Positions 4,280-63,600 of a DNA stretch of 64,000 nt are shown here, piece by piece. The DNA lies in the NCBI RefSeq assembly GCF_000027165.1, contig NC_013853.1, forward strand, positions 1,240,001 to 1,304,000. The letters run 5' to 3'. The first letter of the stretch is position 1; each line of letters starts with the position of its first letter. The notes under the pieces were generated by a model. The model worked only from the letters and a program-made list of their open reading frames with translations. It made no database searches and had not been told where the DNA came from. The DNA comes from Streptococcus mitis B6 (GTDB lineage Bacteria; Bacillota; Bacilli; Lactobacillales; Streptococcaceae). The position numbers and the translations under genes are program-made.

Positions 4280-4603
4280 TTAATATGTTTCCCCTACTCT
4301 CATAGTCTCCCACTCTTTAACGTCAACAGAGAAGATTTTAGGGGCTTTTGTGTCTTCATCATACACTACAACAAAGTGACCTTTACTGTTCCAGAACTTA
4401 CCTAAAATAGTACCATCATGTAAATCAGTACGCAACTTGCTTTCTTGACTTGTTGGGCTTTCTGTTTGTGCTATTTTAGTCTCTTGTTTGCTATCAATCC
4501 CAACAGTTACAAACCTTGACCCTATAATCATAAATAGACAAAACAATATTGCTCCAATCCCCACAAATTTAAACAAATTATAATCGCCATTATCTCTTTT
4601 CAT
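4280..4603 (-). CDS. Single-pass membrane protein, paralogue of the neighbouring gene
   Basis: I do not recognise a named family. The 107-residue protein has a short basic N-terminus, one membrane helix (about residues 13-32) and an extracytoplasmic-type tail with ILGKFWNSKGHFVVVYDEDTK, an APKIF block and an EWETMRVGETY ending. The same plan and endings occur in the protein at 4668-4976, so the two arose by tandem duplication. It is the last gene of the minus-strand accessory block downstream of the type III restriction genes and may be cargo of that block. Function is unknown. Confidence 0.7.
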   Translation of the reverse strand: MKRDNGDYNLFKFVGIGAILFCLFMIIGSRFVTVGIDSKQETKIAQTESPTSQESKLRTDLHDGTILGKFWNSKGHFVVVYDEDTKAPKIFSVDVKEWETMRVGETY

Positions 4604-4667
4604 GTTATCTTTTTATCTCTCTTTCTAACATCCCCCTAGAAGGCTCTCACAAGCCTCCTACAGCGTT

Positions 4668-4976
4668 TTAATACAGCTCACCCACACTCATAAGCTCCCA
4701 TTCAGAAAAATCAACTTGGAAGACTTCTGGGGCTTTTGTAGTACCATTGTACACTACTATAAAATAGCCTTTTTCATTGTAAAACTTACTCAAAATCTCA
4801 GCGTCTTTCATTTCTGCTTTCAATCCACTATCTTCTATCTTTTTATTTATCTGTTGCTCTGTTTCTACTTCATTATTTCCTTGAGTTCCTAAGATATAAC
4901 CACCAAAGCTTACCCAAAAGAAGATAAAAAGCATAAATACAATAGTTGCATATTTCAAAAAATTTAGTTCTTTCAT
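4668..4976 (-). CDS. Single-pass membrane protein, paralogue of the next gene
   Basis: This 102-residue protein has one N-terminal membrane helix (about residues 9-29), an acidic linker and a C-terminal domain ILSKFYNEKGYFIVVYNGTTK, then APEVF and SEWELMSVGELY. Roughly half of the C-terminal domain positions match the 107-residue paralogue at 4280-4603, while the linkers differ. It lies about 50 bases downstream of the broken ORF at 5026-5226 and in the same orientation as the defence genes. No catalytic motif is visible; a membrane-tethered sensor, effector or immunity function would be speculation. Confidence 0.7.
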   Translation of the reverse strand: MKELNFLKYATIVFMLFIFFWVSFGGYILGTQGNNEVETEQQINKKIEDSGLKAEMKDAEILSKFYNEKGYFIVVYNGTTKAPEVFQVDFSEWELMSVGELY

Positions 4977-5267: not shown

Positions 5268-5720
5268 TTATTGAACCACTTTTTGAGATAGTTCTAGTGT
5301 ATATGTTTTATATAATTGATGGCAAGCTTGGTTCTCTCCTACTTTAATTAAGGAAACACAAGGTAAGACAAGTTCTGACCAGATAGACTCTAGTATTTCC
5401 TCTCGATTTGGATGTTCTTCTAACTTAGCAACAATCTGAGGAGCCATCTTATAGTAGGATTCAATTTCCTCCTGACCACCATCTTGCAAAGCTAGATAAG
5501 AATCCCTGAATTTTCGCAAAGTCATCAATTCATCACAATCATCTGCCAATCCCTTGTAAGTTACAGCTGCTTCTGTCAAATAACAACCTCTTTGTTCAAT
5601 CTGATAGTAAGCATCTGGTTCACCAAAAAATCCAGTTTTAGAGCGCACATATCTCTCTGCATCACTCCTACGTTGAAAAACAGCTACTTCTCTTCCCTTA
5701 CGATATACAACAAATTCCAT
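5268..5720 (-). CDS. CFI-box-type small protein downstream of Res
   Basis: The 150-residue protein contains CYLTEAAVTYKGLADDCDEL followed by LRKFRDSYL and ESYYKMAPQIV. These correspond to the C-terminal domain often labelled CFI-box-CTERM (CFITTA, then DDC.EL, FRD.WL and YY..AP.I). The first cysteine box is altered (CYLTEA). The N-terminal 45 residues are a separate basic segment. The ATG at 5720 has AGGGAGG upstream and lies 13 bases after the res stop, so it is co-transcribed with the restriction genes. Molecular role is unknown; the genomic company suggests a part in the defence operon. Confidence 0.7.
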   Translation of the reverse strand: MEFVVYRKGREVAVFQRRSDAERYVRSKTGFFGEPDAYYQIEQRGCYLTEAAVTYKGLADDCDELMTLRKFRDSYLALQDGGQEEIESYYKMAPQIVAKLEEHPNREEILESIWSELVLPCVSLIKVGENQACHQLYKTYTLELSQKVVQ

Positions 5721-5733
5721 TTCTTTTTCCTCC

Positions 5734-8700
5734 CTATCTTACAATATTTAATAATTCCTCATAGCTAGAAACCACATCATAGATGTGCTGATCATTAATC
5801 AATCCAGCTTGTGCCAAAGCTTTAAAGTGAGCACGCGCACAGGCAATTTTTGCTTGCTCAGCTTGCTTTAATTGAAGACTAGACATAGAGCCTTTCGTTT
5901 CTGCAACAAAATAGATATGCTTGACACTTCCTTCACGGAAGGCAATTGCCCAGTCAGGGTTATAGTTCCCAAGCGGAGTAGCAATACTGAACTTCCCTGG
6001 TAGCTTCACATAAACACGAACATCCTCGTATTGTTCCAAAGATTCTTTAAAGGTCTTCTCCGTATTTGAATCAACTTTTACAAAATTGTAAATTCCTTTT
6101 TTGGATTCAAGTAAGTAATCATCTGATCTGTTAGCAGTTTCAGGATTGTCATAAAACAAGTCCATATCATACTCTTCACTTAATACATTATACTGAATAT
6201 GCTTGATAATTTGACTTGCTTTTTGTTCATTAATTAGTTTTGAAACCTTAAGAATAAACTCTTCTGGATTTTGTTTAAACTTGTCAAATTGGTAGACATA
6301 GATTTTACTTAATATTTCCGCAACCAACTTACGAGTTAAACCAGTCTGATCAGCAATCTCCCCTAGCAAATCATATTTGGTCATAATCTGCGAATCCGTT
6401 AGATATTCTTGTTGGCGATCATTCTCAGCCACTGTCAGATGGAGACCTTCTTCCTTACTCATCTCAGTAGCGCTTGCTTGAGTTATATGAAAGCTTGGTT
6501 TGCTAACGACTAATTTCTCATTGATATAGTCAACCGAATGTTTTACCAATTCCGCATCATCAAACTCTACTTGGTAACTCGTCTTACGATTGATTTGCTT
6601 CCAGAGATTTAAAAATTCTTTTCGAGCAATATTTTCTTGATTGACCTCATTTGAGAATTGTATTACCGCATTATTGGCATTTTCAATTTCATACTGTCCA
6701 GCATGATAAACACTCTCCAATATCTCTACCAGCTTATCCTCATAACCTGCTAGCGTTTCAGACAGTTGTAACTGATGATTTTCTTTTGCAGTAAAATATT
6801 CTGTGGTCAATTGTCCTTCACGGTCTATATAGCCTTGTCGGATCAAATCAAAATGAATCGAATCTGCTTGTTCCTTGGTAATACGTATTGTTTGTCCTTC
6901 TTGATTGGTTAGAACTTTATTCGTAAAGAGAGTAACATCCACTTTTGCAGGACGATCTGCTAAAAGTTCTTTGATTTCTTCTTGTAGATTTCGAGCAAAT
7001 TGATCATAGCTTTCATTTGCAATTACTGTCAGTTTATTGATTTCATGAACATCATTTCCTAGGAGTTCAAAATCCTGACGAATTCCATTTTGATCAACTG
7101 CCAAACGCATACCACGACCGATTTCTTGACGCTTTCCAACCTCTGCTGAAGATTTTTTGAGAGTACAAATTTGAAAGACATTAGGATTATCCCATCCCTC
7201 TCTTAGAGCTGAGTGAGAAAAGAGGAAACGAACTGGCTCTTCAAAGCTCAACAAACGCTCCTTGTCCTTCATAATCAAGTCATAGGCATCGGTGTCATTT
7301 GAAAGATTACTTTTCTTTTCACTGGTAGATTTATAATCCACAAAAATGGTCTTATCTGACTTCTTCACTTTATCTACCGAAAAGTAACCAGCATGAACTG
7401 AATTTCCTTCAAGATTAGCCTCCAAATACCTACGATAAGGAGTTGGTTCCTGTGTTTGGATAAACTGGTTTACTTGATTTCGGTATTCCTCTTCAAAAAT
7501 CTGAGCATATTCACCATTATAGGCATCATTATGTTCATCATATTGTTTATACTTGGCCACTTCATCGATGAAAAATAAGGATAATACTTTAATTCTTCGA
7601 TTATAAAGTTTACTTTCCTTTTCGATATGACTTTTTATAGTCTCTCGGATTTGAATTCTTCTGATGCTAGACTCATCCACTTCCCCTATCACTTCACCGA
7701 CATGAAGTTCTTGCGTCACACCAACTTGAAGTTTGTTCTCTCTTGCATCAAAGTGACTAAGGGTCATTCCTTTATAAGCAGATAAATTCCCTGATTCAGC
7801 ATACAAATCAAAGGGTTCTTCCACCACTTTCAATTTCCTTTTGACACCTGACTGCATTTTTACTTCAAACTCAATTTTTGCTTTGGGTGCTCCTGTTTTT
7901 TGTGGAATGATTTCTTGTAGATAAAGATAGCCTTGTGTCCCAGTCGTACCAGTTTGTTCAATAGCCTTAACCGCAATCTTCTTCACTAATTTTTGATTGT
8001 AAGCATCCATGGCATCCAATCTATAAACCATATCATGTTTTTCTTTATGGGTAGCCGAATAACGTAGTGTAAACAATGGCTTGAAATCTTTTAGTCCCAT
8101 CTTGGTTTGTTTACCATTAGCAGACTGAGGTTCATCAATAATCATAATCGGATTCATAGCTGCCAGTACATCAATTGGACGGCGCCAACGGAAACTTTCC
8201 TGTTCAGAATGAATTCGTCGCGCATCTTTTCCTTTTGCATTAAAGGCTTGAATGTTAATGACCATGATTTGAAGGTCTGACGAATTGGCAAAACTATCCA
8301 AATCACCTAAACGTGAAGAATCGTAGACAAAATAGCGTGGTTGTTTGCCATACTCCACCTGAAAGTGACTTGACATGATCTGCAGAGACTTGAGAACTCC
8401 TTCACGAATGGCTACACTTGGAACGACAATAACAAACTTAAGCCATCCGTATCGTTTATTTAACTCCATAATGGTACGGATGTACGTGTAGGTCTTCCCT
8501 GTTCCCGTCTCCATCTCTATGGAAAAATTATAAGCTGGGTTGCCATTAACTCTATCAATAGAAAGACTTTCAGAAGGTCTTAATCCAAAACGAGTTTGTA
8601 CGGCATGAACATTTTCTCGTATACTTGCTTGACTCAATTGAATCGGTGCATTTCGATAAGCATCTAAAACCAAATCTACCTCATCTGACTTGAGACGACC

Positions 8701-8811
8701 TGGATCCGCCATATACTGAACTCCAGTATGTTTGGCTTGCCCTTGAAATAAATCTGCAATAGCACTCACCGCATCCAACTGGAATTGTTGTTTTTTAAAT
8801 TGTAATCTCAT
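5734..8811 (-). CDS. res: Type III restriction enzyme, Res (helicase-nuclease) subunit
   Basis: The Res subunit uses ATP to translocate on DNA and cleaves when bound with Mod. The 1025-residue protein has an SF2 helicase core: Walker A ETGTGKTY at about residue 101, Walker B/DEAD-like DEPQ at about 226, RYSATH at about 252 and motif VI QEIGRGMRL. Near the C-terminus, NPDWAIAF followed by AETKG fits a PD-(D/E)xK nuclease. The start is the ATG at 8811 with GGGAGG upstream; a longer frame to 8862 overlaps the preceding gene and is rejected. It overlaps the SLATT-like gene by 17 bases, which implies translational coupling. Confidence 0.93.
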   Translation of the reverse strand: MRLQFKKQQFQLDAVSAIADLFQGQAKHTGVQYMADPGRLKSDEVDLVLDAYRNAPIQLSQASIRENVHAVQTRFGLRPSESLSIDRVNGNPAYNFSIEMETGTGKTYTYIRTIMELNKRYGWLKFVIVVPSVAIREGVLKSLQIMSSHFQVEYGKQPRYFVYDSSRLGDLDSFANSSDLQIMVINIQAFNAKGKDARRIHSEQESFRWRRPIDVLAAMNPIMIIDEPQSANGKQTKMGLKDFKPLFTLRYSATHKEKHDMVYRLDAMDAYNQKLVKKIAVKAIEQTGTTGTQGYLYLQEIIPQKTGAPKAKIEFEVKMQSGVKRKLKVVEEPFDLYAESGNLSAYKGMTLSHFDARENKLQVGVTQELHVGEVIGEVDESSIRRIQIRETIKSHIEKESKLYNRRIKVLSLFFIDEVAKYKQYDEHNDAYNGEYAQIFEEEYRNQVNQFIQTQEPTPYRRYLEANLEGNSVHAGYFSVDKVKKSDKTIFVDYKSTSEKKSNLSNDTDAYDLIMKDKERLLSFEEPVRFLFSHSALREGWDNPNVFQICTLKKSSAEVGKRQEIGRGMRLAVDQNGIRQDFELLGNDVHEINKLTVIANESYDQFARNLQEEIKELLADRPAKVDVTLFTNKVLTNQEGQTIRITKEQADSIHFDLIRQGYIDREGQLTTEYFTAKENHQLQLSETLAGYEDKLVEILESVYHAGQYEIENANNAVIQFSNEVNQENIARKEFLNLWKQINRKTSYQVEFDDAELVKHSVDYINEKLVVSKPSFHITQASATEMSKEEGLHLTVAENDRQQEYLTDSQIMTKYDLLGEIADQTGLTRKLVAEILSKIYVYQFDKFKQNPEEFILKVSKLINEQKASQIIKHIQYNVLSEEYDMDLFYDNPETANRSDDYLLESKKGIYNFVKVDSNTEKTFKESLEQYEDVRVYVKLPGKFSIATPLGNYNPDWAIAFREGSVKHIYFVAETKGSMSSLQLKQAEQAKIACARAHFKALAQAGLINDQHIYDVVSSYEELLNIVR

Positions 8812-9418
8812 TGCAAATACCTCCCAAGAACAAGTAACTAAGAATAAATAAGATAATAACAATCGGTTGGATATTTACGAAAATATTATCCATACTAAAA
8901 TCTAACTGTCTAATTTCTTTACACTTTGCTCTATGAAAATCGTACTCACTATGATTTTCTTGTTGCTGAAGAATAAGATTATATTTTTCTACTATAACTT
9001 TAAATTTAGCATTCTTCTTTTTAAAATTATAACCTTGTAGAGATAACCATTGAAGTGATTCTTTAAGTTTATTAATTTCTATATGGTGATAATGGAATTT
9101 CAAAGCACGTTCTCTATAGTTTAATGTGGACACATAATATTGAATGATAACTGTATACATAGAAAAACATCCTGAAACTACTTTTTTTATCAAACCTTCA
9201 TTTGGAACTATCAATGAAATAACTAATAAGGCACTAGATAAAATAGCCATCCAAAGTAAATACATGTCCCACTTACTAGCATATCCCCCAAGTCGTTCAC
9301 TAGCCAAAATACGAGCTCGCCTAACAATTTTTAGTTTTCTAATTTCATCTTGAATCATTTCATCAAGCTTATCAAGATTACTATTTTTGCTATTTTTGAT
9401 ATTTTTATTAAAACTCAT
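8795..9418 (-). CDS. SLATT-like membrane effector between mod and res
   Basis: This 207-residue protein has a basic coiled N-terminus, two adjacent membrane helices (about residues 52-70 and 80-98), a cytoplasmic helical region and a third hydrophobic stretch near the C-terminus (about 183-200). The RRARILASERLGGYASKW stretch before the first helix and the YRERALKFHYHHIEINKLKESL block after the second are what I associate with SLATT domains, two-helix membrane effectors paired with nucleotide-signal or other defence modules. It sits 3 bases after mod and overlaps res by 17 bases. Being inserted inside a type III mod-res pair suggests an abortive-infection arm. The SLATT assignment is by pattern only. 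Confidence 0.65.
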   Translation of the reverse strand: MSFNKNIKNSKNSNLDKLDEMIQDEIRKLKIVRRARILASERLGGYASKWDMYLLWMAILSSALLVISLIVPNEGLIKKVVSGCFSMYTVIIQYYVSTLNYRERALKFHYHHIEINKLKESLQWLSLQGYNFKKKNAKFKVIVEKYNLILQQQENHSEYDFHRAKCKEIRQLDFSMDNIFVNIQPIVIILFILSYLFLGGICNEITI

Positions 9419-9421
9419 AGC

Positions 9422-11560
9422 CTACACCACCTTCACTTTTGTATGAGGTGACAATTCTTTGAAGATTTCACTTACGTTAATCTTATCTGCTGAATTGGCA
9501 AATGAGCTATCACGGAAAACGGCACGGAGTGGTTGCGCTTGAGCGATGTGACGGATGACTTCTTCTGATATTTCATCTTCAAAACAAGCCATGAGTGATC
9601 CTTGATCTACATCATAAACTTCTGCGCCTGCTACTTTCTCCAAGTCAATGGCTAGTGACAGTTCCATTCCCCATGTTAGCATAACTTGGAAAAGTAAATC
9701 AAGGCCAGTACGTCCTTCCTTGATATTGGATACACTATCAAAAAGTTCTCCTTGGATAAATTGATCTGGCCGAGCTAAAACATCTTTAAAATTAGAAGAA
9801 TCTAGTTTGTAAGCTTTGAATCCAAAATCTTGCTTGCCAACCAACTCTGGATGCTCCTCCTGAATCTTGATAGCAGCTCGACGAATTCGCTCCCGAGAAA
9901 TCTGGTCAATAGTTTCATAACCTGCTTCTTTAGCAGCAGACTTATCTGCTACTTCTTCATCCAAAGTACACAAGATAAACTTACGATTTCCACCATCTTC
10001 AGCATTTAATTGCATGACTGCATGAGCAGTTGTTCCAGAGCCTGCAAAAAAATCAAAAAATATTGCTTCGGAATCAAAAATACTCAATATCCTCGTCATA
10101 AAACTCATTTGCTTAGGATTATCAAATTCAATCCCCATATTTTTTAACAACGCATAATCAGGTCTTTGATCATCACTCATAATGGATTTTGGACGTTGCT
10201 TGGAGTTTTCATTCAAATATCTCTTTATCGTTGGCAAACTTCCATCTGTATGGAAATGAATTCTATTATCATTTACAAGTTCTTGTAATTTTTCATTTTT
10301 ATAGCGATATCCACCAGGAGGTACAGGGTCTTCTTGACATGTTAGAGGATTAAATAGAGGAGTCATATTCCCATTTTTTACGCCACCTAAATCACCTTTA
10401 CGATATAATCCACGTTCATCAAAGTACCAGTAATTGGTAAAATCTATGAATCGTGGATACTTCGTTAATTCTTTTAATTCATATGTAATTTCTTCATTAC
10501 TTAAACCAGCATTTTGTAATTGCTTTACCCTCTTTTTATACTCATTTATATTATTCTTATCTACAGACCATTTATTTTCACTATGTTTTTTTGCTAATTC
10601 TATTTCGTCTTTGGAATAAACTAGACAATATTCATGACTTACCGAAATATATAAACTTTGGTTCTTAGAACTATTTGTATTCCTAGTAATACTTGCTACA
10701 AAATTCTCCTCCCCAAATATCTCATCACAAATGGCTTTAAGATTAGCTTGTTCATTATCATCGATAGAGATAAAGATAACACCTGAATCCTTGAGGAGAT
10801 TACGTGCTAGACGGAGACGTGGATACATCATATTGAGCCAGTCTGAGTGGTAACGGGCCGATGTCTTTTCATTTTTTGTGAGCCCAACGACCTGGCGTCC
10901 TTCTTCATCCAAAAGTTCCATATCTTCTTTCAGCTCTTCATCTGTTTTTTGGAACTTATCAGAGTATACAAAGTCTTTCCCTGTATTATAGGGGGGATCG
11001 ATATAGATCATATCGATTTTTCCTAGATAGGATTCCTGTAAGATTTTCAAGACTTCTAAATTATCCCCAGTAATAAAGACATTTTCACTGTTTTCAAAGT
11101 CAACACTTTCATCAAGATCTGGTCTTAAGGTTTTGGTAGTTGGTCGCCCAGCTTCTGCGATAGCTTCACGCTTTCCAACCCAAGTAAACTCATAGGATTC
11201 TCGACCATCCACAATTTCCTCTGATAAAAACTGTTTAAGTTTCTCAAAGTCAATCGCAGGACCTAATCTGCCGTATTCATCCCTCTTTTCCGTCAGAACT
11301 TCAGGAAAAAGTTGACCAATTTTTGAAATATTATCTGTAAAAACATCTTTTGAAGTGAGATTTAATTTCTCAAGTCCAGAGTTTTCACCTGTTTGCTGTG
11401 CTGTGCTGTGCTGTGCTGTGCTGTGCTGTGCTGTGCTGTGCTGTGCTGTGCTGTGCTGTGCTGTGCTGTGCTGTGCTGTGCTGTGCTGTGCTGTGCTGTG
11501 CTGTGCTGTGCTGTGCTGTGCTGTGCTGTGCTGTGCTGTGCTGTGCTGTGCTGTGCTCAT
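9422..11560 (-). CDS. mod: Type III DNA adenine methyltransferase Mod, phase-variable
   Basis: Mod recognises DNA and methylates adenine N6 for itself and for the Res complex. The 712-residue protein has motif IV DPPYNTG near residue 190, then a target-recognition region, then the SAM-binding motif FFAGSGTT near residue 505. This order marks a beta-class N6 methylase, as in type III systems. The ATG at 11560 (AAAGGATACTACC upstream) is followed at once by a pentanucleotide tract encoding about ten STAQH repeats. In the present 32-unit state the frame continues into the enzyme (ON). The other two frames stop within 12 codons after the tract. The central recognition region looks more AT-rich than the flanks, which fits allele exchange. 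Confidence 0.95.
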   Translation of the reverse strand: MSTAQHSTAQHSTAQHSTAQHSTAQHSTAQHSTAQHSTAQHSTAQHSTAQHSTAQQTGENSGLEKLNLTSKDVFTDNISKIGQLFPEVLTEKRDEYGRLGPAIDFEKLKQFLSEEIVDGRESYEFTWVGKREAIAEAGRPTTKTLRPDLDESVDFENSENVFITGDNLEVLKILQESYLGKIDMIYIDPPYNTGKDFVYSDKFQKTDEELKEDMELLDEEGRQVVGLTKNEKTSARYHSDWLNMMYPRLRLARNLLKDSGVIFISIDDNEQANLKAICDEIFGEENFVASITRNTNSSKNQSLYISVSHEYCLVYSKDEIELAKKHSENKWSVDKNNINEYKKRVKQLQNAGLSNEEITYELKELTKYPRFIDFTNYWYFDERGLYRKGDLGGVKNGNMTPLFNPLTCQEDPVPPGGYRYKNEKLQELVNDNRIHFHTDGSLPTIKRYLNENSKQRPKSIMSDDQRPDYALLKNMGIEFDNPKQMSFMTRILSIFDSEAIFFDFFAGSGTTAHAVMQLNAEDGGNRKFILCTLDEEVADKSAAKEAGYETIDQISRERIRRAAIKIQEEHPELVGKQDFGFKAYKLDSSNFKDVLARPDQFIQGELFDSVSNIKEGRTGLDLLFQVMLTWGMELSLAIDLEKVAGAEVYDVDQGSLMACFEDEISEEVIRHIAQAQPLRAVFRDSSFANSADKINVSEIFKELSPHTKVKVV
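11396..11557 (-). repeat. Pentanucleotide simple repeat, 32 units, in the 5' end of mod
   Basis: Thirty-two uninterrupted CTGTG units (plus strand; AGCAC register on the coding strand) occupy 11396-11555, with a partial unit next to the mod ATG. Five is not a multiple of three, so each gain or loss of one unit shifts the mod frame. All three repeat frames are themselves open, so the switch acts at the junction. After the tract the two OFF frames meet TGA (AGG TGA) or TAA (AAT TAA) almost immediately. Confidence 0.98.
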
Positions 11561-11629
11561 GGTAGTATCCTTTCTTAGCTTTGTCAAGCTTTTGTAATTT
11601 TAATTTTATAAAAAATTAAGTTGGCTTAT

Positions 11630-11699
11630 CCTATTTTTGTAATGCTTCATTTTTAATACATTACAGCTGCATTTTATCAAAAATAGGGGTTGAAATCAA
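11630..11699 (-). promoter_or_regulatory. mod promoter embedded in nested inverted repeats
   Basis: On the minus strand TTGATT (11699-11694) and TAAAAT (11676-11671) are 17 bases apart, a good sigma-A-type promoter that would transcribe mod-SLATT-res. It is framed by CCTATTTTTG (11630-11639) and its exact complement CAAAAATAGG (11678-11687), and inside these by TGTAATG (11639-11645) and CATTACA (11659-11665). The outer arm lies in the promoter spacer. The arrangement could be an operator or a leader RNA fold. Confidence 0.6.
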
Positions 11700-11748
11700 A
11701 AGAGTTCTCCAATCTCAATTTCTGATTGTTCTTAATCAAAACTTACAA

Positions 11749-12432
11749 TCAATTTTGCTTCTTTAATGCTTCTATTTCTTTCAATGTAGCCTGATAATCT
11801 CTTTTTATTTCCATTTGTTTTCTCATTGATTTTTCAGAATACATCTTTTTCTTTAGCTGCTGTGCCTTTTTTTCTAATTTATCTAATTGGTCACTGAGTT
11901 CAATAGAGTTTCTAAGATTAGCTTTTTCTAAAACTTGTAATTCTTTCTTACCAGTTTCTTTTACAAGACTCTCATAAACATCATCTAAATCATTTCCCTC
12001 AAAGTCAATACTAACATCATCACACGTCTGAAAGCGACGGACAATCTTAAAGTGCTTGCCATCCTTTTCTTGACTTAAAGGTTCTTTATAATGAATAAGA
12101 AGTTCTTCTCTACCCTGTGGATATTTTAATACAAAGGCTGTGTAAATCCCTAATCTTATATCTAGCTGTTCTAATAAAGTTAAGGAAACATCCATTTGTT
12201 CGAGTTCTATTTCTAAAACCATGATTTGCTTCACTTTTTTTCCTGCAGGAATATTAGTGGTACTTGTATCAATCTGATGAGTAATTTGAATTGCTCTAAT
12301 CTGTTCTCTTAAATCTTTCTTTTCTTTTACAGATACATTAAGATTATCAAAAAAATCACTATTTCCCTTTTTATGAGGCCGATATAGAAGGTGAGCTTTT
12401 GATAAGGCTGTATAGGATGGAAATCTAATCAT
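11749..12432 (-). CDS. DUF4391-type partner of the helicase
   Basis: This 227-residue protein has a globular N-terminal part, including LEIELEQMDVSLTLLEQLDIRLGIYTAFVLKYP, and a C-terminal coiled coil rich in K, E and Q (about residues 165-225). I match it to the DUF4391 family, which is repeatedly encoded between a SNF2-like helicase and a type III/beta-class methylase. It overlaps the helicase stop by 8 bases, so the two proteins are probably made in step and work together. No catalytic motif is recognisable. A role as an adaptor for the helicase is inference from context. Confidence 0.65.
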   Translation of the reverse strand: MIRFPSYTALSKAHLLYRPHKKGNSDFFDNLNVSVKEKKDLREQIRAIQITHQIDTSTTNIPAGKKVKQIMVLEIELEQMDVSLTLLEQLDIRLGIYTAFVLKYPQGREELLIHYKEPLSQEKDGKHFKIVRRFQTCDDVSIDFEGNDLDDVYESLVKETGKKELQVLEKANLRNSIELSDQLDKLEKKAQQLKKKMYSEKSMRKQMEIKRDYQATLKEIEALKKQN

Positions 12433-15400
12433 CAGAATCCCCTTTCATCAATATAAAGAAACAAATTAACTCAAAATCATCCATTCCCTCCATGCTAGTA
12501 TTCATCAAGTCAACAGACCCAAAGTTAAATAGGGCATCCATCGTTGAAATCTGATCATGTTCCATTAGTTGATCGATTGCCTCTTGAAGCAATTCCGAAT
12601 AAACAACCATTTCTTTACCATCTTTTGTTTGACGATTGAACTTGTCTACCACATGACTCAACGGTTTACTTTGACCCCGACAAATGCTACTGAGGTGTTC
12701 CAATATTTTCTTGCTTTCGGACGGAGATAACAGTAGTTCTCCATTTCTATTGATGTAGAGGATATAATATGGGTGAAGTTGATTTTGATGATTTTTTCCT
12801 TTTAACTGTTCTTTGTTTTTTAGGACAAAAATGACACCTTCTGATTCTTTATTGGAGGCAGGTAAAATAGCTTGCAATCCTTTTGGAACTCTTTCTAACT
12901 CAGGATGTTCTTCCAAATACTTAAGAAGGTCCATACGATAATCTTCTAAGCCTAAATCCATAATGGAAATACCATCATTCATCTCCTCTAGATCGACTAC
13001 TTCATCTCTAAGACGTTCTAATTGTTTTCTTCGGTAATTATTATCCTCTATTTCTTCACTAGATAAAACATTATCATCTGCTGTTGAGGTCAAAACAGAA
13101 ATCTTCATCCTCGATTCAACCCTAGACTTAAGATCGATATACTCATCTAACTCAAGGTTTGGCCAAAAATTAACCAATTGAATGTATTTATTTTGACTAC
13201 CAATTCGATCCACACGACCAAATCGTTGAACAATACGGACAGGATTCCAGTGGATATCGTAATTAACCATCATATCTGCATCTTGTAAGTTTTGACCTTC
13301 AGAAATCACATCTGTTGCAATTAAAAGATCGATCTCACTCTCATCACCAGGAAACAGAACATCACGAGATTTTGATTTAGGAGAGAAATAAGTTAATAAA
13401 GAATTGAGGTCTTTATTTTTAGTTTCCAAAGTTGTTGCAAAACCTTTTGTACCTGAAATCTGAGCAGTGTAAAGACCATACTTATCTAAGACATACTGAC
13501 TAATATGTTTATAAAGGTAGTTTGTTGTTGTCGCAAATGCGGAGAAAATAATCAGCTTTTTATTACCAACATTGATTGGATTTGTTAGTTTCTCATCTAT
13601 CAATGAAAAAAGAGTCTGGAGTTTTTGGTCTTCTTGTGGCGTTATTTTACTGATTAGATCTTCTAGCTCTGTCAAAATTGCAAAGTCTTGTTCTAACTCT
13701 ACTTTCCAACTACGATAATCCATATCTTGTAAAGCAATACGATTTTTCTTACCAATAGAGAACTCGAAATTACTATCTTCCAAATCAAAATCATCTTCAT
13801 CAAGATGAGAATCAAGAGATAAATGATCCAAGCCTGTCAATTCATATTCCTCGATAGCCTTTAAGGTCTTTTCTACATAATCTTTAACAACATCTATTAA
13901 AGTATATCGAAAAGCTGCAACAGAACTTTCTAAACGTTTGAGCAGGTTAATCATCATCAGTTTTTTGATACCAGACTCACGACCAAACTGAGTTAAATTC
14001 CCCATTTTTCCTTCTTTACTTTTATCGTATTTAGCTCTCTTCGATGGGTAAATATGTATTGAAGGTTGATAGATAGTCAACTGCAGTTTATCAAGTAAGT
14101 GATATAATTTTTTATAGGTAATTCCAAGATTTGAAACCGTTAAATCAGGTTCAAAATTAAGTGGTTTTAAGCGCTGCGGAAATTCTCCAATAGCTTCTCT
14201 ATCATAAAATTCCCGAATATGCTTTCTACTTCTGGCTATCGTTACACTATCTAGTACTTTAAAGAAATCAAAATCTAATGTAGATAGCAGTTTATCTGTT
14301 GTTCTCTCTTCTGCAGGTAGGTCAGCCCACTTATTATAAGCAGATTGAGCGTTTCTGAAAATATCGTTTATAGATGATTTTGTTTCTAATTTACTATCAA
14401 TTTGATCCGTATCTCCTTCATAGGCTAAAGCAATTTGATTTTTCAAATCATTAAAGCGATTATTAACAGGTGTGGCTGATAGCATGAGTACCTTTGTAGG
14501 GACACCAGACTTTATGATGCGATTCATTAAACGGCTGTATCGATTTTCTCTTCCCTCGGATAAGTCATTTTCGCTAGATCCTCCGTTTCTAAAATTATGA
14601 GACTCATCAATAACAACCAGATCATAAGTATGCCAATTATTCAAGGACAAATCAATTCCATTAGAGTGTCCTTTATCTCTACTGAGGTCTGTATGATAAA
14701 GCACGTCATAAAGCAAATGTCTATCATAAATTGGATTATTTACATAATCATGACGATACATATTCCAGTTATTTTCTAACTTTTTAGGACAAAGTACTAA
14801 AATACGTTTTCCTCGATAAGCATAATAAGTCATGACCGCTAAAGCTGTATAAGTCTTACCAAGACCAACCGAATCAGCTAGAATACATCCATTAAATTTT
14901 TCTAATTTAGAAATGATCGATTTTACTGCATCCTTTTGGAAATCATATAACAGCCCCCAAATCTTACTTTCTTTATAACCAACCCCTTCATTTGGTAAAA
15001 AGTCTTCATTGATATCTTCTAAAAATTCACTAAATAAATTATATAGCATCACATAGTAAATGAACTCAGGTGAATGTTCTTTGTGAGCTAGGTTTAAATT
15101 CTCCAAAAACTCTTCTGTAACATCACGAAAATAATCATCTTCTTCCCAAAGATTATCAAATTCATCTAAATAATTTAAACTAAGTGGTGCATGATAGAGG
15201 TTTCTACTCGTTTTAAATAGAGAAGCTTCATATCCTAATTCTTTGCGATCAAAGTTTTTCAAACGATCTACTGCCACTACATCATCCGAATTTTCAATTC
15301 GAATACCATTTGGCATTTCATCTGTTTCAATATTAATAGACTTAAATTGCGCTTTTCTTCGGATCCAATCAGAACATTCACGAGCAATCGCTTTTTGGGT

Positions 15401-15682
15401 CAGCTCATTCATCAATTTCAGTTCATACTTGCCACCAAAGATCGATTGTTCTCGTTCTTTTTTGGGTATCGTATATTCACGGAAATCTGTTTTGGTTTCA
15501 TCTGTTATAAAAGTCGGATTTGTAAAAATAAATTTTAACTCCTCAATATTCTCCAATTCCTCTTTCAACTGCTGATAAGCAAACATAGAAAAGGTTGCTG
15601 CTGCAATTTTGACTCGGCTCTCTGATTTCAACTCTTTCTTTAACTCATCTCCAAGACGAATTGATCGATTATCAATTTCCAT
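12425..15682 (-). CDS. SNF2/DEAD-type helicase with PLD-like N-terminus (defence-associated)
   Basis: The 1085-residue protein begins with a region resembling phospholipase-D-like N-terminal domains of defence helicases (KIAAATFSMFAYQQLKEEL...LKFIFTNPTFI), but I see no intact HKD motif. It then has an SF2 helicase core: Walker A DSVGLGKT at about residue 270, DESH at about 359, LSATPVNN, and motif VI QRFGRVDRIGS at about 822. It is the first gene of the block, with AAGGAGG before its ATG and a TATAAT at 15711-15716 upstream. Such helicases act with DUF4391 and methylase genes in restriction-like islands; the exact activity here is not established. Confidence 0.85.
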   Translation of the reverse strand: MEIDNRSIRLGDELKKELKSESRVKIAAATFSMFAYQQLKEELENIEELKFIFTNPTFITDETKTDFREYTIPKKEREQSIFGGKYELKLMNELTQKAIARECSDWIRRKAQFKSINIETDEMPNGIRIENSDDVVAVDRLKNFDRKELGYEASLFKTSRNLYHAPLSLNYLDEFDNLWEEDDYFRDVTEEFLENLNLAHKEHSPEFIYYVMLYNLFSEFLEDINEDFLPNEGVGYKESKIWGLLYDFQKDAVKSIISKLEKFNGCILADSVGLGKTYTALAVMTYYAYRGKRILVLCPKKLENNWNMYRHDYVNNPIYDRHLLYDVLYHTDLSRDKGHSNGIDLSLNNWHTYDLVVIDESHNFRNGGSSENDLSEGRENRYSRLMNRIIKSGVPTKVLMLSATPVNNRFNDLKNQIALAYEGDTDQIDSKLETKSSINDIFRNAQSAYNKWADLPAEERTTDKLLSTLDFDFFKVLDSVTIARSRKHIREFYDREAIGEFPQRLKPLNFEPDLTVSNLGITYKKLYHLLDKLQLTIYQPSIHIYPSKRAKYDKSKEGKMGNLTQFGRESGIKKLMMINLLKRLESSVAAFRYTLIDVVKDYVEKTLKAIEEYELTGLDHLSLDSHLDEDDFDLEDSNFEFSIGKKNRIALQDMDYRSWKVELEQDFAILTELEDLISKITPQEDQKLQTLFSLIDEKLTNPINVGNKKLIIFSAFATTTNYLYKHISQYVLDKYGLYTAQISGTKGFATTLETKNKDLNSLLTYFSPKSKSRDVLFPGDESEIDLLIATDVISEGQNLQDADMMVNYDIHWNPVRIVQRFGRVDRIGSQNKYIQLVNFWPNLELDEYIDLKSRVESRMKISVLTSTADDNVLSSEEIEDNNYRRKQLERLRDEVVDLEEMNDGISIMDLGLEDYRMDLLKYLEEHPELERVPKGLQAILPASNKESEGVIFVLKNKEQLKGKNHQNQLHPYYILYINRNGELLLSPSESKKILEHLSSICRGQSKPLSHVVDKFNRQTKDGKEMVVYSELLQEAIDQLMEHDQISTMDALFNFGSVDLMNTSMEGMDDFELICFFILMKGDSDD

Positions 15683-15710
15683 AATTCCTCCTTGTTAGAC
15701 TATTTCTACT

Positions 15711-15716
15711 ATTATA
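15711..15716 (-). promoter_or_regulatory. Probable -10 box for the helicase-first operon
   Basis: A perfect TATAAT on the minus strand lies about 29 bases upstream of the helicase ATG. No strong -35 is present at the ideal distance (ATTTTG at 16 bases), so expression from here may be weak or activator-dependent. Confidence 0.4.
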
Positions 15717-15758
15717 TCATTCTTTGCAAATTCAAAATAGACCTTTTTTCTTCTTTCT

Positions 15759-15785
15759 AAAAAAGGAAAGCCCTGCGGCCTTCCC
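15759..15785 (-). terminator. ffh operon terminator
   Basis: On the minus strand GGAAGGCC and GGGCTTTCC form a GC-rich stem with a three-base loop and are followed by TTTTTT, a few bases after the ffh stop. It separates the core ffh transcript from the defence block. Confidence 0.8.
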
Positions 15786-15790
15786 TTGTC

Positions 15791-17362
15791 TTACTTGCGT
15801 TTCTTCTTCGCTTTTTTCATTTTGTTAGCCATACGCTTCATGGACTGTTTCATAGCAAATTCACCGATTTTACCCTTTAGTCCGCCACCAAACATCTGAC
15901 TCATATCTGGCATTCCTGCTCCTCCGAGAGCTGATAGGTCAGGCATGCCACCTTGTCCCATCATTCCTTCAAGGGCAGACATATCCATTCCTCCCATATT
16001 TGGCATATTTTTAGGAAGGTTGTTTGGATTGATTCCCATCTGCTTCATCATTTTGTTCATATCTCCAGACATAACACCCTGCATGAGTTGTTTAGCCTGG
16101 TTAAAGTCTTTAATGAATTTATTAACTTCGACAAAGGTATTTCCAGAACCTGCAGCGATACGACGTCGACGGCTTGGATTTAGCAAATCTGGATTTTCAC
16201 GCTCTTCAGGCGTCATAGAAGAAACAATGGCACGTTTACGCGCAATCTGACGCTCATCCACCTTCATGTTTTGAAGGGCTGGATTATTGGCCATACCCGG
16301 AATCATCTTGAGCAAATCTTCCATTGGTCCCATATTTTGCACCTGATCCAACTGATCGATGAAATCATTGAAATCAAAGGTGTTTTCGCGCATCTTCTCA
16401 GCCATTTCAAGGGCTTTTTGCTCATCGTATTCTTGAGAAGCTTTCTCAATCAAAGTGAGCATATCCCCCATGCCAAGGATACGACTAGACATACGGTCTG
16501 GGTGGAAGGTCTCAATGTCCGTAATCTTTTCACCTGTACCAGCGAACTTGATTGGTTTTCCAGTAATGTGACGAACAGATAGAGCCGCACCACCACGAGT
16601 ATCCCCATCAATCTTGGTAAGGATAACCCCAGTTACTTCTAACTGAGCATTAAACTCACGCGCAACATTGGCCGCTTCTTGACCAATCATGGCATCAACG
16701 ACGAGCAGAATTTCATTTGGTTGAGCTAGTGCTTTCACGTCACGAAGCTCATTCATCAAAAGCTCATCAATCTGCAAACGACCCGCCGTATCAATCAAGA
16801 CATAGTCATTATGATTAGTTTGGGCTTGTTCCAAACCTTGACGTACAATCTCAACAGCTGGTACTTCTGTTCCAAGTGCAAAGACAGGCACATCAATCTG
16901 TTGCCCCAAGGTCTTAAGCTGGTCAATGGCAGCTGGACGATAAATATCCGCCGCAATCATCAAAGGACGGGCATTTTCTTCTTTCTTGAGTTTATTGGCC
17001 AATTTACCGGCAAAAGTTGTTTTACCAGCCCCCTGTAAACCAACCATCATGATGATGGTTGGAATCTTAGGTGACTTGATAATCTCAGCCGTATCAGAAC
17101 CTAAAACAGTTGTCAGTTCCTCATCAACGATTTTAATAATTTGTTGCGCAGGATTAAGGGTATCAATGACCTCATGCCCGACTGCACGCTCACGAACTTT
17201 CTTGATAAAGTCCTTTACAACAGGCAAGGCAACGTCGGCCTCAAGCAAGGCCAAGCGAATTTCTTTGGTTGCCTCTTGGACATCAGATTCAGAGATTTTT
17301 CCTTTTTTACGTAGATTTTTAAAGACGTTCTGCAAACGTTCTGTTAAACTTTCAAATGCCAT
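15791..17362 (-). CDS. ffh: Signal recognition particle GTPase Ffh (SRP54)
   Basis: Ffh binds 4.5S RNA and signal sequences and delivers ribosomes to FtsY at the membrane. The 523-residue protein has an N-terminal helical domain, the GTPase G1 motif GLQGAGKTT at about residue 109, DTAGR at about 191 and TKIDGD at about 249. The C-terminal methionine-rich M domain carries the RNA-binding segment SRRRRIAAGSG and a glycine/methionine-rich tail. Length is normal for streptococci. It follows ylxM by 11 bases, the usual arrangement in which YlxM modulates the SRP. Confidence 0.98.
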   Translation of the reverse strand: MAFESLTERLQNVFKNLRKKGKISESDVQEATKEIRLALLEADVALPVVKDFIKKVRERAVGHEVIDTLNPAQQIIKIVDEELTTVLGSDTAEIIKSPKIPTIIMMVGLQGAGKTTFAGKLANKLKKEENARPLMIAADIYRPAAIDQLKTLGQQIDVPVFALGTEVPAVEIVRQGLEQAQTNHNDYVLIDTAGRLQIDELLMNELRDVKALAQPNEILLVVDAMIGQEAANVAREFNAQLEVTGVILTKIDGDTRGGAALSVRHITGKPIKFAGTGEKITDIETFHPDRMSSRILGMGDMLTLIEKASQEYDEQKALEMAEKMRENTFDFNDFIDQLDQVQNMGPMEDLLKMIPGMANNPALQNMKVDERQIARKRAIVSSMTPEERENPDLLNPSRRRRIAAGSGNTFVEVNKFIKDFNQAKQLMQGVMSGDMNKMMKQMGINPNNLPKNMPNMGGMDMSALEGMMGQGGMPDLSALGGAGMPDMSQMFGGGLKGKIGEFAMKQSMKRMANKMKKAKKKRK

Positions 17363-60610: not shown

Positions 60611-63600
60611 TTAGTCTTCTTTTTTCTTGCGAGAAAGAAGTCCAAATCCACCTAGGGCTCCAAGAAGTCCAAGCGCTGCGAGGCTAGCGTTAGCTTCTGT
60701 ACCTGTGTTAGGCAATTCTTTAGCCACTGTATTCACGTTAGCTGTTTCTTGGTTAGCGTTTGTGGCTTGAGTAGCTTGGTCATTAGCTAGAATTGCATGA
60801 TTAGTTGCTGGAGAAACTTTCAACATGAAGTCTTCTATACGTTTAACCATTGCATCCACTTCTGCTTGAGTTGCGTTTGCATTGGCAAATACTTCTTTAG
60901 CGGCTGCTAATAATGCGTTCGCTTCTTTCACAGTTTCTGCATCAAGCTTAGCTGATTCTTGGATGATTAGCTTATCCAATTGACGAATAGCACCTTCTAA
61001 CTTCGATTTATCGACTATCGTTTCAGCGTTATTAATTCTATTATTTCCTCGATTATATGATGGAACATAAGGAATTTCTTTAAAGATATCTTTAGCTAAA
61101 ACTGTATATGCTTTACCATTATTCAAAATAACCGTTGCATTTCCTTTATCATCGAAGATTACTTCTGCTACATCTGGGTTAGCTGCCATAATTTTGGCTT
61201 TAGCTCCCGCTTTATCCGCGTCTGTTAAGTTGTCCAAATCAGCTACAAGTTGTTTTTCAAAATCAAGATTAAGATTTTCACCATTGTTTTTAGTTGCTAC
61301 ATCTGCTTCATCTTTAACTAATTGTTCAGCTGAAATTGTTGCTGTTTTTCCATCTACTGTGGTTACTGTCGCGTTACCCTTTTCATCTACAACAACTGTT
61401 GAGCCTGGATTTACAGCTTCCACAGCAACCTTAATCTTAGCAATTTCTTCAGGAGTTAAGTTATTCTTATCTGCTACCAAGGTGCGTGTAGCTGGAATAT
61501 TCACACCATTTTGCTCAGATAGGTCTGCAAGTTTTTCTGTTGGAATAACTAGTTGAGAAGCAGGAATTACGGCTGTCTTACCATCTTTCGTAGTAACTGT
61601 CGCATTTCCTTTGTCATCTACTACTACCTTAGCACCTGGATTAACTGCTTCTACTGCTGTCTTAACTGCTTCTTTTTCTGAATCAGTTAAAGCATCTTTC
61701 TTAGCAACTGCTGTTTTAACCGCCGGTGTGTTGATATCATTGCCTGCATTTGGTTTAGCGACTGCTTCTGCTGTCTTCGTCAAATCAGCTGCTGGAATAA
61801 CCGCTGTCTTACCTGAAGGTGTTGTAACAGTTGCGTTACCTTTGTCATCTACTACCACCGTAGCTCCTGGGTTAACGGCTTTAACCTTATCCTCAATAGC
61901 TTTCTTCTCTTCTGGAGTAAGGGCTTCTGGATTGGCTACTACTGTCTTAGACGCTGGCTTAACTACATCGTCGCCTGCATTTGGTTTAGTCGCTGCTTCT
62001 GCTGTCTTCGTCAAATCAGCTGCTGGAATAACCGCGGTCTTACCTGAAGGTGTTGTAACAGTTGCGTTACCTTTGTCATCTACTACAACCGTAGCTCCTG
62101 GGTTAACGGCTTTAACCTTATCCTCAATAGCTTTCTTCTCTTCTGGAGTAAGGGCTTCTGGATTAGCTACTACTGTCTTAGACGCTGGGGTAATCACATC
62201 GTCGCCTGCATTTGGTTTAGACGCTGCTTCTGCTGTCTTCGTCAAATCAGCTGCTGGAATAACCGCTGTCTTACCTGAAGGTGTTGTAACAGTTGCGTTA
62301 CCTTTGTCATCTACTACCACCGTAGCTCCTGGGTTAACGGCTTTAACCTTATCCTCAATAGCTTTCTTCTCTTCTGGAGTAAGGGCTTCTGGATTGGCTA
62401 CTACTGTCTTAGACGCTGGCTTAACTACATCGTCGCCTGCATTTGGTTTAGTCGCTGCTTCTGCTGTCTTCGTCAAATCAGCTGCTGGAATAACCGCTGT
62501 CTTACCTGAAGGTGTTGTAACAGTTGCGTTACCTTTGTCATCTACTACAACCGTAGCACCTGGGTTAACGGCTTTAACCTTATCCTCAATAGCTTTCTTC
62601 TCTTCTGGAGTAAGGGCTTCTGGATTGGCTACTACTGTCTTAGACGCTGGCTTAACTACATCGTCGCCTGCATTTGGTTTAGCCGCCGCTTCTGCTGTCT
62701 TCGTCAAATCAGCTGCTGGAATAACCGCTGTCTTACCTGAAGGTGTTGTAACAGTTGCGTTACCTTTGTCATCTACTACTACTGTAGCTCCTGGGTTAAC
62801 GGCTTTAACCTTATCCTCAATAGCTTTCTTCTCTTCTGGAGTAAGGGCTTCTGGATTTGCTACGACTGTTTTATCTGATGGTGTATTGATGTCGTTTCCT
62901 GCATTTGGTTTCTTAGTATCTTCAGCAGTACGTACTAATTCATCTACAGGAATCACTTGTGTTTGTCCATCTGGAGTTGATACTTTAGCATTTCCTTTTT
63001 CATCTACTGTTACTACAGAATTTGGATTTACTGCTTCTACAGCTGCTTTAATTTTTTCTTTTTCAGCATCTGTTAATTTAGCTGGATCTGCTACAACCAC
63101 TTTATTCGCTGGTTTAACTACATCATTTCCTGCTTTTGGTTCATTTGCTGTATCAGACGTTTTCACAACTTGTTCAGGAGTGATGGTTTCCTGATGACCA
63201 TCTGGAGTTGTAACAGTAATATTTCCATCTGCATCTTGAGTAATTTCTTTAGCATCTGGATTTACTTTCTTAACAGCTTCTAAGACCTTAGCTTTTTCAT
63301 CGTCTGTTAAAGTACTTGGGTCATTTACAAGAACTTTATCAGCCGGAATATTCACTTCACCTACAGCTTTAATAGCCGCTTTATCTGACTCTTCAATTCC
63401 ATCAACAGCTTCTGCTGTTTTAGCGGCATCTACAGATTTTTTAGCTTGTTCTGCAATCTTATCTACTTGAGCTTTAAGATCTTCTTTTGCTTTAGGAGTT
63501 AAATCTGTACGTGAATCAATTGCTGCTTTTTTAGCTGTTGCTTCTTCGTCAATTGCTTTACGAGCATTTGGTTTATCTTCAACTAATGGTAAAGATTTTT

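Follow-up and report, generated by a model that had tools for sequence, protein, structure and literature searches.

The type III modification gene (mod) of a restriction-modification (R-M) locus in Streptococcus mitis B6 opens with a long run of AGCAC units. We read this tract, at a probability of about 0.9 and on the anatomy of the DNA, as the slipped-strand ON/OFF switch of a ModS-type type III methyltransferase, and the position between mod and the restriction gene res as a slot holding an exchangeable defence-type gene. The switch is convincing by anatomy, yet it is of a kind already known, since ModS has been published; the parts worth following are the slot, a leader form of the same switch and the position of a promoter-like site. 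Coordinates (Table 1) refer to the window, the whole stretch of 64,000 nucleotides that was analysed.

Table 1. Features of the mod locus in window coordinates.
Feature	Position	Strand	Basis
AGCAC pentanucleotide tract: 32 full units and a partial AGCA	11394..11557	-	repeat search, in-silico translation
mod: type III DNA adenine methyltransferase, 712 aa, ON with 32 units	9422..11560	-	model matches, translation
mod central specificity region	about 10130-10600	-	without blastn match in 8/8 compared loci
SLATT_5 protein, occupant of the mod-res slot; ATG 3 nt past mod stop	8795..9418	-	family models, gene layout
res: type III restriction subunit, 1025 aa from ATG 8811; 17-nt overlap with SLATT end	5734..8811	-	models, layout
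DUF4391 protein	11749..12432	-	family match
SNF2-type helicase, near full-length match to PADLOC HKD+Snf2 model	12425..15682	-	profile matches
150-aa protein adjoining res in mitis-group loci, no family	5268..5720	-	family scans, locus comparison
TTGACA-17-TACCAT promoter-like site; -10 overlaps mod ATG; purine-rich ribosome site in spacer	11558..11587	-	motif match
TTGATT-17-TAAAAT candidate promoter upstream of mod	11671..11699	-	consensus match only

The PADLOC type III methyltransferase model matched Mod over residues 64-712 (E 5e-218), and a type III model matched Res over 18-1040 of the listed ORF (E 3e-295). In Mod, DPPY stands before FAGSGT, and Res has both GTGKT and PD...ETK; the locus has the N6_N4-type Mod, with motif IV ahead of motif I, and the ResIII helicase-nuclease of a type III R-M system. 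The helicase matched the HKD+Snf2 model over residues 3-1075 of 1085. A gap of 188 bp separates mod from the upstream DUF4391 and helicase genes, and an E. coli plasmid and an Acinetobacter plasmid each have annotated helicase, DUF4391, mod and res genes but no middle gene. The common site in the mitis group is ylxM-ffh-[helicase-DUF4391-mod-X-res]-uraA; blastn matched ffh and ylxM in all six of the loci L143-L148 and uraA in five. The window helicase, DUF4391 and res genes are 94-97% identical in DNA to those of the six loci, and the flanking DNA about 93-95%. The specificity region of Mod had no blastn match in any of the six, and the matched parts of the Mod ends were 90-97% identical, covering 87-91% of each end in all six, so that the alleles combine conserved ends with a divergent central specificity region. 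Downstream of the locus, two small related proteins at 4280-4976 show about 71-83% DNA identity in the mitis group, where most neighbours show about 94-97%. Elsewhere in the window, a 49-bp unit is repeated 9.4 times upstream of a uraA-like permease gene (2272-2732), and a 231-bp unit 4.9 times at 96%, likely within a surface protein gene (61742-62873).

The mod ATG lies at 11560-11558 on the minus strand and the 32 AGCAC units occupy 11557-11398; with the partial AGCA the perfect repeat runs to 164 bp (11394-11557). The sequence-only reading had placed 32 uninterrupted units directly after the mod ATG, which holds with the small correction that the tract ends at 11557, not 11560. On in-silico translation, 32 units keep the 712-aa Mod in frame (ON). 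That a one-unit change brings TGA or TAA within 12 codons, as had been claimed, was likewise borne out: 31 units give TGA at codon 57, at most 4 codons past the tract end, and 33 units give TAA at codon 68, at most 12 codons past it. The AGCAC unit is free of stops in all frames, so every frame reads through the tract, and full-length Mod was translated only when the unit number n was 2 mod 3. Copy number of an SSR near the mod start thus sets the reading frame. Gain or loss of a unit would shift that frame, and OFF cells would lose Mod methylation; since type III Res acts only with Mod, they would also lose restriction.

The 2.15-Mb genome has four successive AGCAC units at one site only and the reversed pattern at none; among 284 Streptococcus species genomes the figures are 22 and 0. 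The tract is not a chance occurrence. Mod relatives at E 1e-30 were found in 35 of the 284 genomes, a set with one genome per species, so that tract lengths are compared between species. In the 31 loci laid out (the window and 30 others), 20 had a tract with a readable start, of 4 to 36 units, the longer of which may be misstated in short-read assemblies. Four were ON (the window, L155, L160 and L161), 15 were OFF and one, in L135, was broken; every OFF locus regains the frame with one or two more units. Four ON among 19 unbroken tracts may be compared, informally, with 6.3 expected for random frames. In L151 the contig end falls inside the tract, no start could be read for the AAGAG tract of L139, and nine loci have no tract. 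AGCAC was the commonest unit, the others being GAACA/AGAAC (L131, L137), AACG (L142), AAGA (L136) and GAGCA (L135). One genome (G196) has four R-M loci, each with a tract at or near the start: AACG in L142, AGCAC in L165 and L166, and AAGAG in L139.

It is very improbable that the tract is a relic or an assembly artefact that does not switch. Several relatives do have short OFF tracts of about 8 units, and L158, one of the nine loci without a tract, keeps only an in-frame remnant of two units, as would suit a relic; the window repeat, however, is perfect over 164 bp in a genome assembled as one contig, and tract lengths differ between species. Switching should be slow in the seven of the 20 tracts that have about 8 units.

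Slipped-strand ON/OFF control of a type III mod, as proposed in the sequence-only reading, is supported by the variation of repeat number and frame among relatives in the genus and by the switching published for ModS. For S. suis, the available portions of two papers describe switching of a ModS-kind gene by western blot, SMRT methylome and SWATH proteomics (PMC8125046, PMC6265453). ModS1-3 resemble the window gene in having the tract right after the ATG, conserved ends and a variable central specificity region, and belong to the same Mod family; the window Mod as query found the S. suis loci L042, L087 and L088 at 58-78% best-segment identity, and these three also have AGCAC tracts. In the part of the source consulted, the S. 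suis modS unit is printed mostly as GAGCA, with some GCACA and GACAC (PMC8125046); the window unit, AGCAC/GCACA, differs from GAGCA by one base. Unlike ModS1-3, with which the comparison is by description, the window locus has SLATT between mod and res and a mitis-group host. By analogy, we infer that the strain may have a phasevarion. The Gram-negative modA, modB, modM and modH share the SSR frame switch of a type III mod; their repeats and Mod lineages differ from those of the window mod.

The position between mod and res, here taken by SLATT, is an exchangeable slot that the first reading had missed. In 24 of 29 streptococcal loci, a count that leaves out the distant loci L138 and L139 and includes L149, with a broken mod and the same junction, a gene starts 1-4 nt past the mod stop and ahead of res. 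Two such genes are present in four of the 24 (L144, L149, L154 and L130), and the occupant need not reach the res start, since in L134 it ends well before res. The five loci without a gene at the exact slot comprise L132, L135 and L152, with about 4 nt from mod to res, and L136 and L142, with an ORF further on. Among L143-L148, only L143 and L147 have a slot gene that matches that of the window (97%).

Occupants fall into about six kinds. SLATT, recognized by matches to the window protein, is present in 8 of the 24 loci, a 130-aa protein together with a ThsB-like TIR protein in two, an FRG protein (PDC-S15) in two, PDC-S32 in one, and, in three, a protein of 276-281 aa whose one match, to Abi_alpha, stayed below the threshold. 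The other eight loci have shorter proteins of 119-219 aa that seem to contain a membrane helix; five of these were scanned and gave no confident family, with weak matches in L153 and L161. Family scans covered 10 proteins from nine of the 24 loci, plus the window; the rest were placed by SLATT matches or by reading the sequences. The window protein belongs with the SLATT_5 effectors (Pfam PF18160, 86.6 bits against a cut-off of 29.5, E 2e-24) and matches the PADLOC RTasSLATT model (E 5e-43); unlike those effectors, it has neither a reverse transcriptase nor a nucleotidyltransferase beside it, as judged from scans of eight neighbouring window proteins. In 69 loci with mod and res from sources not named Streptococcus, 11 of them viral contigs, the gap between the two genes was 0-48 nt in 41, larger in 27 and unreadable in one. 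Twenty between-gene proteins from 19 of these loci were scanned, with matches to RhuM, Schlafen, AbiJ, SIR2, Fic, YhcG nuclease, pentapeptide, PycTM with an AGS_C protein, Abi_C and DUF3800; PLD fell just under the cut-off, and six had no family match.

Effectors embedded in R-M loci are known from the accessible parts of earlier reports, among them PrrC in EcoprrI, and HEPN, RhuM and Fic/Doc in R-M neighbourhoods; PrrC, within the EcoprrI type I locus, resembles the slot as a defence effector inside an R-M operon and is read as its guard (PMC12707154, PMC3710099). The likeness is one of gene position alone, the window system being of type III and its slot having many unrelated occupants. Judged by title and the start of the abstract, no paper among the literature matches listed dealt with a mod-res slot or a leader switch, nor did any of those listed describe a phase-variable system with a gene slot placed exactly at the mod stop. 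A search for DUF4391 with 'type III restriction' gave no paper, and the portions available of PMC12479173, PMC11514479, PMC4263131, PMC6755750 and PMC9187656 contained nothing on the slot or the leader switch.

These occupants bear on the purpose of the switch. We consider it an even chance that it serves mainly in defence against phage and foreign DNA, with ON cells restricting, OFF cells taking up DNA and the regulon a side effect. The res frame is uninterrupted in 30 of the 31 streptococcal loci, the window included, and broken in L142 (in L132 a contig end cuts it short, and the Res proteins of L138 and L139 are distant), and the slot carries defence-type genes such as ThsB-TIR, FRG (PDC-S15), PDC-S32 and SLATT. 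ModS switching in S. suis alters protein expression, however, according to the part of the report available (PMC8125046), so regulation is real there; both can hold.

It had also been suggested that OFF alleles reduce the translation of SLATT and res. Translational coupling at the mod stop, by which mod OFF would lower SLATT and Res as well, is in our judgement rather doubtful. The tight geometry fits: the mod stop lies 3 nt ahead of the SLATT ATG in the window, and in the 24 of 29 loci with a slot gene 1-4 nt past the stop a purine-rich site of the AAGGTGGTG kind is found inside the last mod codons. The slot-gene ribosome site, however, is not specially paired: its median unpaired probability was 0.38 at the 24 junctions folded, compared with 0.42 (sd 0.09) in background windows across the window mod gene, so that a ribosome site buried at the junction is unsupported as a coupling device. 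Polarity through Rho at the mod locus is unlikely because no match to Rho over the cut-off was found in the genome (a Rho did pass it in 8 of the 14 named genomes used as a control), and three weaker matches look, in our reading, like other ATPases.

Sixteen of the 22 genomes with (AGCAC)x4 carry the tract in the mod gene described, a count that leaves out C255, a second contig end in G031. In the remaining six, the tract lies at seven loci (L162-L167 and L168/L169, the last two probably parts of a locus that a contig break divides) in a short leader ORF before another R-M gene: HsdM in two, other N6 methyltransferases in three, a HindIII-like restriction gene followed by its methyltransferase in one and a type III mod in one. 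The same leader form was found with a GAGCA tract in L211, where the gene is a Mod relative from the genus search, and, as read from the sequence, with CAAGA or GCAA tracts before type I-like or type III genes in L259-L262. In these 12 leader loci at least one frame stops 1-13 nt past the tract and at least one continues to the vicinity of the following gene's start codon, at offsets from -32 to +5. A strict rule, with closed frames at most +12 and open frames from -16 to +6, was passed by nine of the 12, namely all six of the first set, then L211, L261 and L262; the failures were narrow in L168 (1 nt) and L259 (2 nt), and L260 had one frame ending at -32. At each locus, 8-83 of 2000 dinucleotide-shuffled spacers passed. 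Some of the 12 loci are related and should not be counted as independent events, and the rule was itself shaped on six of them, though the genes downstream are different. Compared with their shuffles, the spacers form stronger folds (z -1.3 to -7.6), and the unpaired probability of the ribosome site was at most 0.02 in nine of 12, 0.20 in L261 and 0.65 at the site picked in L260; the L166 value is uninformative, its site having been picked too far upstream.

From these sequences, the frame of the leader seems to decide whether ribosomes cross the hairpin before the next gene. Repeat number would set whether the ribosome stops right past the tract or passes through the hairpin, and a ribosome passing to the next methyltransferase or restriction start would free the ribosome site of that gene. 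A general link between AGCAC and R-M genes was not seen outside streptococci, and none of 23 viral stretches with (AGCAC)x5 had the leader form by eye (tract-flanking bases for all 23, genes for three). GAGCA tracts, present in seven of 284 Streptococcus genomes, are not confined to R-M genes, as they also occur, by eye, within genes that resemble those for sugar or acyl transfer (L205, L206, L210) and ahead of an operon of pilus-like appearance (L209, L212). In L209 and L212 a GAGCA leader and a long hairpin precede, again by eye, an apparent signal peptidase and a large pilus-like surface protein.

Promoter-like matches in 8700-15900 are no commoner than in shuffles (24 against 27.8), so a single match is meaningless and only a fixed position beside tracts counts. 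A TTGACA-16/18-TA(CC or TA)AT(G) site overlaps the ATG in all 20 tract-bearing mod loci (as TTGTCA in L137); it is absent from eight tract-less loci and L139, present in the remnant L158, and would fall off the contig in L151. At 33 of 35 tracts the -10 box of a sigma-A-like site with at least 9 of 12 matches ends 0-5 nt ahead of the repeat; such a site precedes 1.5% of 20,000 random positions and 4.1% of 269 gene starts, tract loci included. The misses were L205 and L210, with L139, outside the set, a third. The site also accompanies the tracts inside reading frames in L207 and L208, and all four of the tracts found later, whose leader sequence is partly common with the earlier ones. The L115 tract is without a score-9 site, and in viral stretches a score of 9 is reached, counting either strand, by three of 34 repeat rows, two of them in L185 and the third in L189. 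L185, a viral contig fragment, has two different tracts (TGAC and GCTGT), each beside a promoter-like site. The motif alone is not tied to repeats, since TTGACA-16/18-TANNATG occurs at 12 places in the window genome, against three for the reversed pattern.

The predicted RNA start falls inside the tract; the site is unlikely to serve Mod expression because an RNA started there would lack the mod start codon. We infer instead a role in slippage, in which repeated opening of the DNA at the adjoining sigma-A site may itself drive the process. Tentatively, and at somewhat less than even odds, both forms of the switch, with the tract in mod or in a leader with a hairpin, would be versions of one portable streptococcal module placed at the start point of a sigma-A promoter, with DNA opening driving slippage.

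ModS-type phase variation is thus extended from S. suis to the mitis group, including the pneumococcus and its commensal kin. At this locus a random switch would be combined with a specificity region and an accessory gene that both vary, and, if the slot is as we read it, each strain would have a different second line of phage defence alongside its one random switch. For the instability of the repeats, the promoter position suggests a cause that can be tested. The leader form, if true, would make any downstream gene phase-variable while leaving its protein untouched, and such switches would escape searches for repeats inside long reading frames.
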